IMG/VR virus record: IMGVR_UViG_3300001041_000071
Span: 1-20,178 of that record
DNA: 20,178 bases
Reading direction: 5' to 3' (one strand)
Origin: a virus
The translations under genes were made by a program, and so were the position numbers. Below, in pieces: positions 15,720-20,178 of this stretch (the first letter of the stretch is position 1; each line of letters starts with the position of its first letter). The notes under the pieces were generated by a model, which did no database searches, was not told where the DNA came from, and saw only the letters and a program-made list of their open reading frames with translations.

Positions 15720-15851
15720 TTATTTAATTTGTTCTGGTAGTTTGAATTTGTCTACCCATGTTTTAGGGTCAATGGTTAACTCTGTGGGTTTTGTGACCAT
15801 TACCAACGATTCTGTGTCGAGTCGGTATTCAATTACTAACACTTTAATCAT
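15720..15851 (-). CDS. Small protein overlapping the terL nuclease gene, 43 aa
   Basis: The ATG at 15851-15849 overlaps the stop of the terminase nuclease half (ATGA) and opens 43 codons to TAA at 15720: MIKVLVIEYRLDTESLVMV, then TKPTELTIDPKTWVDKFKLP near the end. There is only a weak GGA upstream, so translation probably depends on coupling. The beta-strand-like start and a short helix suggest a compact fold. The function is unknown. Evidence that it is real: ATGA overlap, sensible composition and a terminator directly after it. Confidence 0.6.
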   Translation of the reverse strand: MIKVLVIEYRLDTESLVMVTKPTELTIDPKTWVDKFKLPEQIK

Positions 15852-16870
15852 CTTCCAATCTTTTTAAGGATATATGCCCTCATTTCAGGGGTAGCTCTTT
15901 CCAAATCTTCAAGCAAGTCTTCAGGAAGATCGTTCAGGTTTTGCTTCTCTACTATTTGAACAGTAAACCTCTGTTGTGGTCTTATTTCAGCCGCGATCAT
16001 ATCCGACATTAATAAATCATCATGTTTGCCCGGTGTTGCATCCGGTCGGTTGTTCTTGTCATAGATAAAGGTTAGGCATTCGCCGAGCATCGTAATGTCG
16101 GTGAATAATTCAATGTGTTCCTCAATAAGTGCAATTTCCTTGTCAATGATAAGTGGTCTACTATTCCCATCAGTCTTCCATCCGAACTTCTTTTGAATTT
16201 CCTTACTGATGCTGTCGTAGGATTGGCGCATGTATTGTTTTGGGTATCTCAGGCGTTCGAGTTCTTCAAGAGGTGCAGTATTAAAGTTCATTTCAATTCC
16301 AATAAGAGCCTCGTTGAAATACTTTCCAAGGCAATAGACCTGATGAGTATATGGTTTAGAATTTGATGATTGCATATGAAGTGTGGCGGAACGCTTTCCT
16401 GTGATGTTATTTAGGACTGTAGAAGAGTAATAATCTCCCCCTTCTCCTTTTGTGTCTCCACCAATTACATATGGATAATCTTTTTGCACATCCTCATAAA
16501 TGGTAACGAAACCTCGTTCGTCCTCTACCCAATGAATAGAATCATCCTTGATCTTATTTTGAGTATCAGGATCATCCCATTCAAAAGAAAAACGCCCTCG
16601 TTTTGGAGGGTGTTCCTTATAAAGCTTCTTTAGTTCTTCAATCCGCATCTCTACGATTTCATTTGCAAATACAGGCCGGCCAGTTGAAAGGAACGCCTCT
16701 TTTGGATATGAGGGGTTCTCCTGCTTCATGAGGTTGTGGTCCCCGCCGCAATCGTTCTTTAGTTTCCAACGATACCACTTGATTTGACCAAAATCAACTC
16801 CATATAGGCTTATTAGACTTTTTTCATAATCATTAAGACTTAATACCTTATTAGCTTCTTCTATATTCAT
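15848..16870 (-). CDS. terL: Terminase large subunit, C-terminal nuclease half (split gene), 340 aa
   Basis: The frame is open from ATG 16885, but GGAGGTG lies there; the ATG at 16870, 7 nt downstream, overlaps the HNH stop (ATGA) and is the likely start. The protein opens with EKSLISLYGVDFGQIKWYRWKL and ENPSYPKEAFLSTGRPVFAN (residues ~16-70), the usual bridge between ATPase and nuclease domains in large terminases. The RNase H-like nuclease follows with acidic residues in the expected places: D139 (VIGGDTKGEGGDYYS), E193 (IGIEMNF) and D284/D285 (GKHDDLLMSD). It cuts concatemeric DNA at headful packaging. It lacks the ATPase, which is supplied by the separate gene at 17364-18239. No frameshift or decay is visible. 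Confidence 0.9.
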   Translation of the reverse strand: MNIEEANKVLSLNDYEKSLISLYGVDFGQIKWYRWKLKNDCGGDHNLMKQENPSYPKEAFLSTGRPVFANEIVEMRIEELKKLYKEHPPKRGRFSFEWDDPDTQNKIKDDSIHWVEDERGFVTIYEDVQKDYPYVIGGDTKGEGGDYYSSTVLNNITGKRSATLHMQSSNSKPYTHQVYCLGKYFNEALIGIEMNFNTAPLEELERLRYPKQYMRQSYDSISKEIQKKFGWKTDGNSRPLIIDKEIALIEEHIELFTDITMLGECLTFIYDKNNRPDATPGKHDDLLMSDMIAAEIRPQQRFTVQIVEKQNLNDLPEDLLEDLERATPEMRAYILKKIGR

Positions 16871-17358
16871 GGCACGCACCTCCATGAAATGTTTCTCTTT
16901 ATCCTGCTAACATGGCATTGCTTAATATCGTAATCTTTTGCTATTTCCTTCTGCAATCTATTATCATTTCTTATCGAAATAATTTGATCGTTAGTTAGTT
17001 TTGATTTACCACTTTTTTCCCCAGCTAAGCATGGTGGTCTGTTTCTTTTCTTCTTAATCATATCCATGGTATTACCCTTCGGAGTATCTACAAATAGGTG
17101 TGCAGGATTAATGCACGATTTGTTATCGCATTTATGGCAAACAAACAAGCCTTCCGGTATTTTTCCTTTATATTTTTCGTACATGTACCTATGGACTTTA
17201 ATTATTTTGCCGCCCCTATTCATTTCATGATAACCGCTAGTAACATTAATCCTATGACTATCGCATATCCAGCAACCATTTTCAGAAACACTCCACGATA
17301 CCTGCTTGTAGTTATGAGGCTTCCAATTTTCTGCTCTAATGTATTTACCCTTCGGCAT
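16867..17358 (-). CDS. HNH homing endonuclease inserted inside terL, 163 aa
   Basis: The ATG at 17358 is 8 nt after AAGGAG; that site itself encodes the last Lys-Glu of the terL ATPase half, whose stop follows at once. A GTG at 17367 overlaps the site and is rejected. The HNH domain is clear: C29/C32, then KVHRYMYEKY (H56-R57), VCHKCDNKSCINPAHLFV (C74, H75, C77, N79, C82, H87) and a TPKGNTMDM helix. A C-terminal helix-turn-helix follows (LTNDQIISIRN to KEIAKDYDIKQCHVSRIKRN, residues ~121-155), which would select the site. It would cut unoccupied terL alleles and spread by repair. Outside the ORF no intron-like sequence remains, so it is free-standing. Confidence 0.9.
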   Translation of the reverse strand: MPKGKYIRAENWKPHNYKQVSWSVSENGCWICDSHRINVTSGYHEMNRGGKIIKVHRYMYEKYKGKIPEGLFVCHKCDNKSCINPAHLFVDTPKGNTMDMIKKKRNRPPCLAGEKSGKSKLTNDQIISIRNDNRLQKEIAKDYDIKQCHVSRIKRNISWRCVP

Positions 17359-17363
17359 GGAAA

Positions 17364-18239
17364 TCACTCCTTATTGGAATTTATATATTCATTATATACT
17401 CTCCATGCCTCATCTTCAATAGCTGTTGTATCAAGCCTATAAAGTTCATAGTCATGCCAAGCGAAGAACATAGGGATAAAGTCATTCTCCCCGGCCTCTG
17501 CCTTGTCCCACAAGTCTTTAAAATCGTTCATGCCATTTGCTGTACTCTCTATGATAACAATCGTTCCCGGTATGTTGGGAACCGACTGAAGTATCCCGGA
17601 AAGAGTGGTTGCGGGATTTCCGCCATAGAAGGCGAACTCCGAAAGATGAACGTAGTAATGAGTATCAGAGCGTCCGATTCCGTCACTGCCAGCAGTTTGA
17701 ACCTTAATCTTACTATTCAAGCCTTCGCCTTTCCCCTTGTGAGTAGCGGGAAGGTCAAATATAAGTTCACGGGCATTAGAAGCTTTCTGTAATGGCTTAA
17801 TCCGGTCAGGGAGCTTGCTGTACATAAACTTAGCTTTTTCAAAGATGGCATTGGTCGAGTCGTCGCGATGGGCAACCACAAGTGCATTTCTGTTCTTATT
17901 CTTTGTCAGTCTACAAATCAACTTTCCTTGGGTATATGTGGAAACACCTTCCTGTCTTGCCTTCAATACAATGATTCGGGCAGGGATTCCGAGTGTTTCT
18001 AGTTCCTTTATTTTATCGTCTATTATTTTCTGGATTGAATTATAGGTTAAGAAAACTTCATTTCCTTTTTTGTCGATTACCTTGATATAGAAACGACAGA
18101 AATCATCATCATTGCGCCTAGCTAATTCGTCCTTAATAGCATCTAACGATGGTAAATCACTCTGCTTTATTTTAGGCCTAGCAACTTTAATAGGAGTATC
18201 CACGATATCCTTACTCGCCTTTTCCTTCTTGACTACCAT
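17364..18239 (-). CDS. terL: Terminase large subunit, N-terminal ATPase half (split gene), 291 aa
   Basis: The ATG at 18239 is preceded by GGAG 8 nt upstream; that site lies in the last codon of the previous gene. The ATPase motor is complete: an adenine-binding Q-type region (YNSIQKII, ~66-73), a Walker A-like KARQEGVST (residues 93-101), Walker B YYVHLSEF with catalytic E201, and the coupling motif ESTANG (231-236). The protein ends just after FFAWHDYELYRLDTTAIED (residues ~258-276), in the linker before the nuclease domain. It powers DNA packaging into the prohead through the portal. Normally this is continuous with the nuclease; here the nuclease half is a separate gene beyond the HNH gene. 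Confidence 0.92.
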   Translation of the reverse strand: MVVKKEKASKDIVDTPIKVARPKIKQSDLPSLDAIKDELARRNDDDFCRFYIKVIDKKGNEVFLTYNSIQKIIDDKIKELETLGIPARIIVLKARQEGVSTYTQGKLICRLTKNKNRNALVVAHRDDSTNAIFEKAKFMYSKLPDRIKPLQKASNARELIFDLPATHKGKGEGLNSKIKVQTAGSDGIGRSDTHYYVHLSEFAFYGGNPATTLSGILQSVPNIPGTIVIIESTANGMNDFKDLWDKAEAGENDFIPMFFAWHDYELYRLDTTAIEDEAWRVYNEYINSNKE

Positions 18240-18243
18240 ACTA

Positions 18244-18399
18244 TCACTCCAAAGATACTTGATACGTCACCCAGTGTCGCACCCATATTTCTTCCCGGCA
18301 TTTGTGCTTGCTGTAATTCCATCGTTTGCAGTTTGCGCAATTAACTAGGATACCAGGTTCATTACTTTTAAATTCGGAGCATGATCTATTTTCGGACAT
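18244..18399 (-). CDS. Small cysteine-rich (zinc-ribbon-like) protein, 51 aa
   Basis: The ATG at 18399 follows AGGAGTG at 7 nt; a possible extension to 18441 would cross a terminator-like hairpin and has no ribosome site. The protein has C-x2-C followed by a third Cys (NCANCKRWNYSKHKC) and an earlier C near the N-terminus (RSCSEF), a likely zinc-binding arrangement, then an aromatic basic tail (EEIWVRHWVTYQV). It overlaps the ribosome site of the terL ATPase gene, so both are probably co-translated. A DNA-binding or packaging-accessory role is possible from the position, but the family is not recognised. It is too short to be a typical small terminase. Confidence 0.65.
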   Translation of the reverse strand: MSENRSCSEFKSNEPGILVNCANCKRWNYSKHKCREEIWVRHWVTYQVSLE

Positions 18400-18418
18400 G
18401 GTTTTCACTCCTAGAGAT

Positions 18419-18452
18419 ATAAAAATAATCAGCAAGGGCAACGCCGATCTGA
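18419..18452 (-). terminator. Possible terminator after the transporter gene
   Basis: On the minus strand, TCAG pairs with CTGA and GGC with GCC in an imperfect stem (18429-18452), followed by TTATTTTTAT. It starts right after the stop codon of the transporter gene. Confidence 0.45.
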
Positions 18453-18453
18453 A

Positions 18454-19116
18454 CTATTTAGATTGCGTTCCGCAAGATGGCTCCCACAAAGGGAATTTGT
18501 TTTCACTGTTGCACCCAGCCCTATTACACCTAGTCGAAGGATTATAGATTGACATTACGGATAACGGCATCCTTTTTCCGCATGTCTCGCAGTTCCTATT
18601 TGTTTTTCCTCCGAATCGTTCCAAGTCACCAACTCCGATAAGCTGCATTACCGTTTTAACGATTATTTGACCAATTATAGCCATCGGAACTGCTCCCCAA
18701 GGTATAAACCCTGCTCCCAATGGAGACAACCCAACCATCACAAATACAGAAGAATCTAAAACACCTGAAACCATCCCGCTATAGATAACTCTAAGATGCA
18801 TCGGTAATCTTAATCTAGTATAAATTTCTGTATCTGTGGTTTCGCTCAATAAAAAACTAACTGCACTAGCAAGCACAATCCAAAGCGTGTCGCCCAATAA
18901 TCGGGATGATATTGTGGATAAAATTAATGCCAAAATAATAATTAAATACGTGTTTCTTCTGCCGTGTTTTTCCTGAACCAAATCCCTTAGGACAAAAGTA
19001 GCACCGATTAGAAATGTCCCTAAGGTTATAACAAAAGGCCCTATAATTAATGGTGCGAATGATGCAGTTAAAACATTAGCGATTATAATTGCCATTAGAT
19101 AAAGAAATACAATCAA
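18454..19116 (-). CDS. yhhQ: VUT/YhhQ-type queuosine-precursor transporter with Cys-rich C-terminal tail, 220 aa
   Basis: An integral membrane protein of the VUT (YhhQ/QPTR) family, which imports preQ0/preQ1. The start is TTG at 19116, 5 nt after GGGAGGAG and overlapping the dpdA stop (TTGA). The TTG at 19131 lies before that site and is rejected. Membrane segments are seen at about residues 3-17, 21-42, 56-72, 77-92, 112-129 and 138-160. Family hallmarks include GPFVITLGTFLIGATFVLRD (26-45) with the R-D pair, then EKHGRRNTY, SRLLGDTLWI and AVPMAIIGQIIVKTV. Residues ~167-220 form an unusual tail with C176-x2-C179, C197-x4-C202 and C215, probably zinc-binding. Coupling to dpdA suggests the phage scavenges 7-deazaguanine bases from the cell. 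Confidence 0.85.
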   Translation of the reverse strand: MIVFLYLMAIIIANVLTASFAPLIIGPFVITLGTFLIGATFVLRDLVQEKHGRRNTYLIIILALILSTISSRLLGDTLWIVLASAVSFLLSETTDTEIYTRLRLPMHLRVIYSGMVSGVLDSSVFVMVGLSPLGAGFIPWGAVPMAIIGQIIVKTVMQLIGVGDLERFGGKTNRNCETCGKRMPLSVMSIYNPSTRCNRAGCNSENKFPLWEPSCGTQSK

Positions 19117-19736
19117 GCAAACTCCTCCCAATATTGTTGATTAAGAGTTGCTAATCCCCTTGGAATTAGCGTATCCGGAAACATGCTAAATCCAGAACCA
19201 TCCACAGAATTACATCCAATAAGTCTGGCATAATTAATCCTCTTTTTGCTGTTCACCCTACCCATATGCACGAACTTACCTCTCAACCGCGCTTCCTTGA
19301 CAAGTTCCCTAACATAAGCACCAAGTTTGAATTCTGTTGTACCCCCAATAAAAAGTGCCCCAAACTTAGTCCAATGCACATCGCATTTATCTAATCCATC
19401 TTGAGCCACAAGGGATACCGGAAGGTCATACGACTTGATAATAGGCTGCCAATATTCAAACTGCTTTAGGGTTAGCTCAGCGTTACCAACTACGTCAGGT
19501 GCATTTACGAATAGACAACCTTGTTTTCCTTGTATCCTTTTCAAGGTATTTATAAAAGCTTGCTCGTTAAAACCTGTAAAGCAATCATTGTCCATCGCCC
19601 ATTTTAGTCCGTAGTCGATGATTATATTTATGTCGTGTCCACCACGGGGAGTTAATAGAAATCCAAGATTAGGATTGTCTTTGTATTTTTTAATTGTTTT
19701 TGTTGCCCCACTTACCAGAAGTAAGATAGTGTCCAC
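19113..19736 (-). CDS. dpdA: DpdA-like 7-deazaguanine DNA transglycosylase, 207 aa
   Basis: A protein of the tRNA-guanine transglycosylase superfamily in its phage DpdA form, which replaces guanine in DNA with a 7-deazaguanine base. Motifs in order: LLTPRGGHD (28-35), WAMDNDCFTGF (46-56), FVNAPDVVGNAELTL (76-90), LVAQDG (109-114), FGALFIGGTTEFKLG (125-139, the substrate-binding GG loop), GKFVHMGRVNSKKR (153-166) and IGCNSVDGSGF (173-183). By analogy with TGT enzymes, D179 in SVDG is the likely nucleophile and D49 or D51 a general acid/base; this is inference. It is shorter than bacterial DpdA (about 400 aa), as expected for phage forms. The start is GTG at 19736; an in-frame stop lies six codons upstream and the ribosome site (AAGG) is weak. 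Confidence 0.85.
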   Translation of the reverse strand: MDTILLLVSGATKTIKKYKDNPNLGFLLTPRGGHDINIIIDYGLKWAMDNDCFTGFNEQAFINTLKRIQGKQGCLFVNAPDVVGNAELTLKQFEYWQPIIKSYDLPVSLVAQDGLDKCDVHWTKFGALFIGGTTEFKLGAYVRELVKEARLRGKFVHMGRVNSKKRINYARLIGCNSVDGSGFSMFPDTLIPRGLATLNQQYWEEFA

Positions 19737-19887: not shown

Positions 19888-20178
19888 TTAAATTACTTTC
19901 CTACCAAGTAAATCCAACGCTTGCAAAACAGTTCTAACCGTAACCCTGTCGTAATCCTTTATGTTCTCAGATAACTCTCCATACGGGTACATATCAGCAT
20001 GGCACTTAGCACACCATTTATAAAGCTTAGGGTTGTGGTTATCTTCAAACCTATCCTTGGCTTCTCTATGCGATTGTAAGTATCCAACATGTTCCTCGCT
20101 GACACATTCACTCGGAGAATGAAATCCTTGGTTTTTCTTTTCTCTCCACCATGCATCATGCACTTTCTCGCTTAACTG
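19888..20178 (-). CDS. RyR-domain protein, cut by right edge (at least 96 aa seen)
   Basis: A GTG at 20163 could start the frame, but the codons before it to the edge stay open and read QLSEK, so the protein runs QLSEKVHDAWWREKKNQGF; the K-V-H-x-x-W pattern is part of the RyR (ryanodine-receptor repeat) domain, so the true start is beyond the window. The C-terminal half has the domain's signature, PYGELSENIKDYDRVTVRTV, with the D-R-x-T/V core and a final helix (QALDLLG). A WCAKCHADMYPY stretch, HPSECVSEEH-like residues and a Cys pair are present. Many phages carry such single-domain proteins; the biochemical role is unknown. It lies upstream of dpdA by 151 nt. Confidence 0.8.
   Translation of the reverse strand, partial: QLSEKVHDAWWREKKNQGFHSPSECVSEEHVGYLQSHREAKDRFEDNHNPKLYKWCAKCHADMYPYGELSENIKDYDRVTVRTVLQALDLLGRKVI

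Follow-up and report, generated by a model that had tools for sequence, protein, structure and literature searches.

Two overlapping minus-strand genes of a 20,178-base virus record (IMG/VR record IMGVR_UViG_3300001041_000071; the whole stretch is here called the window) probably form a minimal salvage-type 7-deazaguanine cassette, in which a free base would be imported, exchanged into DNA, and used for its protection. The phage that carries them probably shields its DNA using an ingredient that it does not make itself. The first gene (19113..19736, minus strand) starts with GTG and encodes a short DpdA-like transglycosylase (sDpdA) of 207 amino acids (aa), which matches phrog_15826 at E 9e-53. 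The second (18454..19116, minus strand) encodes a VUT/QPTR transporter. The initial annotation regarded these two open reading frames (ORFs) as translationally coupled by TTGA; both are present on the minus strand at these positions, and the stop/start overlap of the two genes was confirmed at 19116-19113 (feature 19113..19116, minus strand). The VUT ORF was first called at 18454-19131 (225 aa, TTG start), and its frame is open from the TTG at 19131. A Shine-Dalgarno-like run, GGGAGGAG (19122..19129, minus strand), lies 5 nt ahead of 19116. Because this spacing from the TTGA is suitable, the transporter probably starts at the TTG at 19116, giving 220 aa, rather than at 19131. The 207-aa protein was found at 100% identity in three other IMG/VR contigs, with a VUT frame adjoining it in each. 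The identical pair in several assemblies, amid phage genes, rules out chance or host contamination as its origin.

The short DpdA family

At E ≤ 0.01, the 207-aa protein matched only phrog_15826, which is labeled "unknown function", and no Pfam or NCBIfam family scored above its cut-off. Canonical phage DpdA (Sonali gene 87 and phiG7_16 as representatives; also Escherichia phages 9g and CAjan) belongs to a separate PHROG, phrog_887, and is approximately 300 aa long, whereas the short protein has 207 aa. The window's protein gave no match to the phrog_887 profile, and the identity of the short DpdA to three canonical DpdAs was 14–17%, row L018:3793-4767 being left out of these values as it is not a DpdA. 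When the short family was compared with a six-sequence profile of canonical DpdA using hhalign, the two matched over residues 40–134 (E 7.3e-6, probability 84%), with D49, D81, and the GG pair aligned; canonical DpdA is likewise similar to tRNA-guanine transglycosylase (TGT) and has equivalents of D49 (LDSGAF), D81 (LDGIGD), and GG. The comparison with 20 TGTs gave a weak local match (E 0.04, probability 1.4%), in which D179 was aligned with the FDC-motif Asp, Q112 with a conserved Gln, and the two GG pairs with each other. This Asp is the nucleophile of TGT, whose catalytic and base-pocket residues are Asp102, Asp156, Gln203, Gly230, and Asp280.

A family alignment yielded 425 confirmed relatives among viral contigs, from which the 80 best were retained, together with 46 relatives in genomes, so that the counts given here stand for the nearer part of the family. 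Ten residues (D49, P80, D81, Q112, F129, G131, G132, K137, H157, and D179) were invariant in 77 of 77 aligned members, and the window's copy retains all ten. Several phage records annotate members of the short family as "DpdA-like tRNA-guanine transglycosylase". Protein EVB98_054 of Rhizobium phage RHph_N3_2 matched both phrog_887 (7e-51) and phrog_15826 (7e-5). Its gene shares a GTGA overlap with a VUT gene (L151 7186-8390), and since this DpdA is of the phrog_887 type, such coupling also occurs outside the short family. We file the 207-aa protein under the DpdA/TGT superfamily as a separate short family rather than as canonical DpdA. The initial description of a "phage-type DpdA" thus stands insofar as the protein is TGT/DpdA-like, but not as an assignment to the canonical type of approximately 300 aa, which is the one that has been studied by experiment. 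The hidden Markov model (HMM) searches that had been suggested for both proteins placed the transporter in Vut_1 above the cut-off, but gave neither a Pfam TGT nor a phrog_887 match for the 207-aa protein.

AlphaFold2 (AF2) predicted a complete, compact TIM barrel for the 207-aa protein (pLDDT 95.2). In comparisons with PDB structures, the TGT entries listed reached Z values of approximately 15 (best 15.2 at 3.0 Å), with root-mean-square deviations (rmsd) of 3.0–3.2 over 198–201 aligned residues. In BFVD, there were 29 fold matches at E ≤ 1e-3; five were named queuine tRNA-ribosyltransferase, the canonical DpdA of Sonali among them, and the other named matches were a glycoside hydrolase, an isomerase-like protein, and a phosphodiesterase. 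A phmmer search of the protein against PDB found no TGT, and PADLOC returned nothing for it and nothing for the canonical DpdA of Sonali either.

The homology with TGT raises the alternative that the short DpdA acts on tRNA, and that the phage, with the VUT transporter, increases Q-type modification of the host tRNAs during infection and so aids translation. TGT has a C-terminal zinc region, for which the 207-aa protein leaves no room, because it ends after the barrel in the whole-protein model. An importer beside a TGT-like enzyme would also serve tRNA, and fusions of QPTR transporters with bacterial TGT have been reported (PMC11130926). However, TGT was already present in 19 of the 21 genomes searched that hold other copies (22 of the 46 genome loci entered these searches), some relatives adjoin canonical DpdA and a DNA-modification pathway, and family members occur on phages and plasmids. 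We consider a tRNA role unlikely.

Sonali and Vibrio phage R29Z each have an intact short member next to a canonical DpdA of full length, and phiG7 has a two-piece short member near its canonical DpdA; the function of the canonical enzyme therefore cannot simply be carried over. This coexistence, the distant kinship to canonical DpdA, and the weak TGT profile match are compatible with a TIM-barrel protein that has an accessory role instead of inserting the base: it might remove, edit, or further process the 7-deazaguanine already in DNA, or act on the base in its free form. We regard such an accessory role as improbable, given that the nucleophile-like and pocket residues are identical throughout the aligned family and that canonical DpdA was found in none of the flanks of 36 VUT-linked loci (flanks in which TGT was not looked for). 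In the Seuratvirus phiG7 (L020 5881-6473), two ORFs located a few genes away from the canonical DpdA together make up the split short DpdA, and the short DpdA of SHIN8 was likewise matched in two pieces.

The VUT transporter

The initial assignment of the transporter to the VUT type was borne out by its match to Vut_1 (PF02592, COG1738; 58.3 bits vs a cut-off of 27.2), and the protein also matched phrog_4899 at E 3e-32. With the PRK11212 model of preQ0/preQ1 transporters, it scored 10.5 against a cut-off of 252. Its structural model contained six long predicted helices within residues 2–174, and the best PDB matches of this model were ECF S-components (ThiT, PanT, and BioY), all with E above 0.05. 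The nearest of 25 compared VUTs was that of locus L042, with 62% identity. The C-terminus of the protein (18454..18612, minus strand) forms a five-Cys tail (CETC...CNRAGC...C), modeled with low pLDDT, which resembles a zinc ribbon and, among the VUTs aligned, was found only in this phage's copies.

Genome context and the precursor pathway

A 59,917-base contig (G003) includes the window at positions 25132-45309, with 99.99% identity. A relative of 64,923 bases (G001) has an exact 126-bp repeat at both ends (10-135 and 64798-64923), and we read it as a closed circular assembly on account of this repeat. G003 is collinear with G001 apart from several unmatched stretches, the largest of approximately 10 kb; its ends do not overlap and it is not complete. 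Between G001 and the window, none of the 434 codons of the pair differ, the VUT gene included. The 4.6 kb around the pair are 98.7% identical and the other matched parts 65–99.6%, so that the identity of the two genes is not special to the cassette.

The initial annotation noted that no folE, queD, queE, or queC genes lie nearby, and suggested a search of the whole genome. Family searches gave no match to QueC, QueD, FolE (alternative FolE types were not searched for), TGT, or QueF in G001 or G003, and no full match to QueE. The only Radical_SAM match covered 18 profile positions below the cut-off in a 72-aa frame of G001, and this CxxxCxxC frame was rejected as QueE for that reason. Among 14 control genomes, these family searches gave matches in between 8 and 14. 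The observation of "none nearby" is thereby extended to none found in the genome, that is, in the contigs that include the window or resemble it closely, and the salvage reading holds; the core proposal of the initial annotation was reasonable. In G001, 85 of the 105 called ORFs entered the scan of gene content, in which each library listed its 25 commonest families (out of 65, 119, and 118). A comparison of the terminase large subunit (TerL) revealed no close isolate (best 33% identity), and therefore no host was assigned to the phage. A role in protein deazaguanylation of the type IV CBASS/qat-like kind was rejected, because such systems use QueC-family proteins (PMC13279940) and no QueC match was obtained in any of the contigs G001–G003.

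Recurrence of the gene pair

To describe the neighborhoods of the short DpdA, we used 133 loci, consisting of L021–L146 and seven isolates (L013–L019). Clustering at 70% identity grouped them into 71 clusters. The cluster, tree, and distance counts do not include phiG7 (L020). In 36 of the 133 loci and 23 of the 71 clusters, a VUT gene lay on the strand of the short DpdA and within 1 kb of it. All of the VUT matches in these loci (1.98 Mb) were within this distance and on the same strand, with none farther away or in the opposite orientation. The fetched flanks of the 36 VUT-linked loci contained no QueC, QueD, QueE, FolE, or canonical DpdA. Pathway genes or canonical DpdA occurred in nine clusters, and these or VUT in 31; neither was found in 40 clusters, some of which had short flanks. 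One ten-locus cluster was mixed, with VUT in some of its members and pathway genes in others.

The gene order varied, with VUT upstream in 27 loci and downstream in nine. On a tree of 95 of the 133 rows, made by a quick method with a simpler model, the supported branches require five or more changes (gain or loss) in the state VUT upstream and three or more in the state VUT downstream. Possible junction overlaps of the GTGA, ATGA, or TTGA type were found in L015, L035, L063, L071, L074, L095, and the window, and the VUT and short DpdA genes of GreaseLightnin overlap by eight bases. The carriers of the pair include Mycobacterium phage GreaseLightnin (VUT gp54, short DpdA gp55), Rhodococcus phage ReqiPine5, Arthrobacter phage Aoka, and two Streptomyces plasmids, in which a gene annotated as "VUT family protein" is directly ahead of the short DpdA. 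In addition, 171 plasmid records held a relative of the short DpdA, 133 of them from Pseudomonas (e.g., L157 and L160). In the two Pseudomonas plasmid records viewed, the distant relative was longer (coding sequences of 864 and 861 bases) and annotated as hypothetical, with no annotated VUT near it.

In ReqiPine5 (L015 5438-7599), a PAPS-reductase-like gene (PF01507) adjoins the VUT–short DpdA pair, and in three clusters, L013 included, a PP-loop-looking gene family recurred in the vicinity of the short DpdA. The most frequent neighbor family on the opposite strand was taken, from its coordinates, to be an antisense frame of the short DpdA itself.

Precursor supply in relatives

Across 50 whole records, VUT was found in 24 (23 above the cut-off), QueC in five, and both in none (one-sided P 0.03), in a set that was hand-picked to contain 24 records with VUT nearby and 26 without. 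In Arthrobacter phage Aoka, genes 38–40 encode a VUT, a QueF-like protein (gene 39, 29.5 bits vs a cut-off of 27.3), and a short DpdA. A QueF-like gene also stood between VUT and the short DpdA in L070, L072, and L083 (above the cut-off) and in L079 (below it); the 50 records searched for QueF overlapped those searched for VUT and QueC but were not identical to them. These triads have the same VUT and short DpdA families as the window, on the same strand, but differ from it in the extra gene, since G001 and G003 gave no QueF match. No QueC was found in the whole triad records searched (Aoka, L072, L079, and L083), and the arrangement suggests that imported preQ0 is reduced or amidated. In L065, a QueF-family gene is directly ahead of the short DpdA and no VUT was found there, and the intervening ORF of L103 matched the same PHROG as the QueF-like gene of Aoka.

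QueC/QueD/QueE or the complete pathway occur in other relatives, and Sonali and R29Z combine the short DpdA with canonical DpdA and pathway genes. The QueE of L031–L033, L044, and L142 rests on a small phage profile (Pfam gave 19.7 bits, below the cut-off, for L033 and nothing for L044), and the FolE of L053 is located 9 kb away. No correlation between VUT and QueC-lacking hosts was seen in the 21 genomes searched, of which only three held a VUT-linked copy. One phage contig (L082 1-4600) contained three short DpdAs, two QueC, a QueE, and an ORF of the nucleoside 2-deoxyribosyltransferase family.

Relation to known systems

Canonical DpdA lies beside folE/que genes in Sonali, phiG7, and CAjan. 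In addition, Hutinet et al. (2019; PMC6884629) placed 76 phages in a DpdA-only "Group 3", for which host-made or imported precursor was suggested; these phages have a DpdA-type gene without pathway genes, as does the window's phage. The same survey describes DNA modification in DpdA-only phages as hard to predict and leaves the source of the base open. It also reports that phage YhhQ homologs correlate with no group, whereas the VUT described here goes with a single short-DpdA family. The modified nucleoside dADG was found in the DpdA-only phage MED16 (PMC8306585).

A phage-encoded Vut_1 transporter of preQ0/preQ1 was described in Pantoea phage Vid5 in 2018, and salvage of preQ0 was hypothesized (PMC6266253). 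In this respect, Vid5 resembles the window's phage, but its queuosine-type cluster contains three of the four preQ0 genes (PMC8306585) and it also has a tgt/DpdA gene, whereas no such pathway genes were found in the window's phage, and the enzyme is of the short family. A preQ0 transporter has also been described in a full-pathway phage (PMC8310023), and transporters are marked in a cluster figure of PMC7472734. The Seuratvirus-type clusters (CAjan, EC151; PMC8310023) link a phage VUT to 7-deazaguanine DNA modification, as here; however, their VUT supplements a full pathway, and the window's VUT is the only supply gene found. The salvage idea itself is therefore already in print, for Vid5 and in the survey of DpdA-only phages. 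We found no literature description of the VUT–short DpdA pairing or of the QueF triad in a search judged mostly by titles and the openings of abstracts, and priority cannot be claimed.

Proposed mechanism

In the proposed cassette, VUT would be placed in the host membrane during infection and take up a free 7-deazaguanine base (preQ0 or preQ1), and the short DpdA would swap guanine in the phage DNA for the imported base by TGT chemistry. D179 would be the Asp nucleophile, D49 the second acidic residue, and D81, Q112, and G131/G132 the base pocket. The modified DNA would be less sensitive to restriction enzymes or other DNA-recognizing defenses. We infer the substrate, with its import and exchange, from the protein families and the coupling of the genes, DNA rather than tRNA as the target from the kinship to DpdA and the mobile-element setting, and protection from published work on CAjan and others (PMC6884629). 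The DNA modification itself and its dependence on host diet, as proposed in the initial annotation, are likewise inferences, whereas the gene structure, the families, the predicted fold, the residue conservation, the lack of pathway-gene matches, and the recurrence of the pair are direct results of the analysis.

Several observations weigh against this reading. The 207-aa protein had no Pfam TGT (PF01702) match, nor was there one in G001 or G003, and a family-profile search of PDB did not retrieve TGT. Pyruvate kinases equaled or outscored TGTs in the structural comparison (best Z 16.1 at 3.7 Å), although their rmsd (3.3–3.9) was larger than that of the TGTs listed, and the Foldseek list was headed by other TIM-barrel enzymes, so that the fold alone does not decide the function. 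VUT was not found in 48 of the 71 clusters, some of which had short flanks. The best PHROG of the "QueF-like" genes was phrog_5949, labeled GTP cyclohydrolase; GTP cyclohydrolase and QueF have related folds. QueC was present in two of three genome assemblies holding a VUT-linked copy, which indicates that import is not solely a rescue for pathway-less hosts, and phiG7 has a VUT approximately 4.3 kb from its split short DpdA in addition to QueC, QueD, FolE, and canonical DpdA, so that both precursor supplies can coexist.

The transporter also scored below the NCBIfam cut-off for the queuosine precursor transporter TIGR00697 (45.6 vs 50.95). Considering this missed equivalog cut-off, the breadth of the Vut_1 family, and the weak score of one relative with the VUPS model, VUT might import another nucleobase or a vitamin, and the adjacency would then reflect a general "nucleotide supply" operon. 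However, the adjacency to a TGT-like gene is repeated on the tree, QueF-like genes occur inside the pair, and Que genes lie beside other copies, all of which make another cargo decidedly improbable.

The last of these observations concerns the modification itself: Mycobacterium phage Orion, a DpdA-only phage of a pathway-less host, had no 7-deazaguanine in its DNA, and Salmonella phage 7-11 had traces only (50 dADG per million nt; PMC6884629). These cases are what would be expected if the cassette were a relic or silent in most hosts, its precursor rarely met and the DNA mostly unmodified. Nevertheless, all of the invariant residues are intact, neither gene is broken, several assemblies hold identical copies of both, and relatives retain start/stop overlaps; we therefore think it very improbable that the cassette is a relic.

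Beyond the window, the salvage cassette may belong to a portable module common to phages and plasmids, an idea that we put forward tentatively, as falling somewhat short of probable. Such a module would consist of a compact DNA transglycosylase and an exchangeable supply slot (VUT, VUT with a QueF-like protein, or QueC/D/E), and in its importer version, protection would depend on 7-deazaguanines released by neighboring microbes, so that immunity to restriction would be set by community chemistry. The window's phage would represent the smallest version of this module, and it is this exchangeable slot for precursor supply, next to a single compact transglycosylase, that merits further work. The pairing of VUT, with or without a QueF-like protein, with one short DpdA family would provide a specific and testable answer to the question of the base source, and it could be tested in cultured phages of M. 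smegmatis, a host without the pathway according to PMC6884629. If the reading is true, the restriction resistance of a phage could be switched by giving it a nutrient or keeping it from one, and salvaged 7-deazaguanine marks would occur on the DNA of plasmids as well as on that of phages.

Other features of the window

A 65-aa, Cys-containing ORF from the ORF list (18244..18441, minus strand) lies directly downstream of VUT and is possibly on one transcript with the pair; no family scored above its cut-off for it in the HMM search. Terminase and portal genes are located downstream of the pair, beyond this ORF. Searches of the window with Rfam and ARAGORN gave no matches, including no Rfam intron at the divided terminase gene. 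The ORF upstream of sDpdA (19888-20178, minus strand) had a marginal RyR-domain match (27.5 bits vs a cut-off of 27.4). The terminase large subunit gene (15848-18239, minus strand) consists of two ORFs (291 and 345 aa) that flank an HNH_3 endonuclease ORF (16867-17367), whereas in the relative G001, it is a single ORF of 538 aa.

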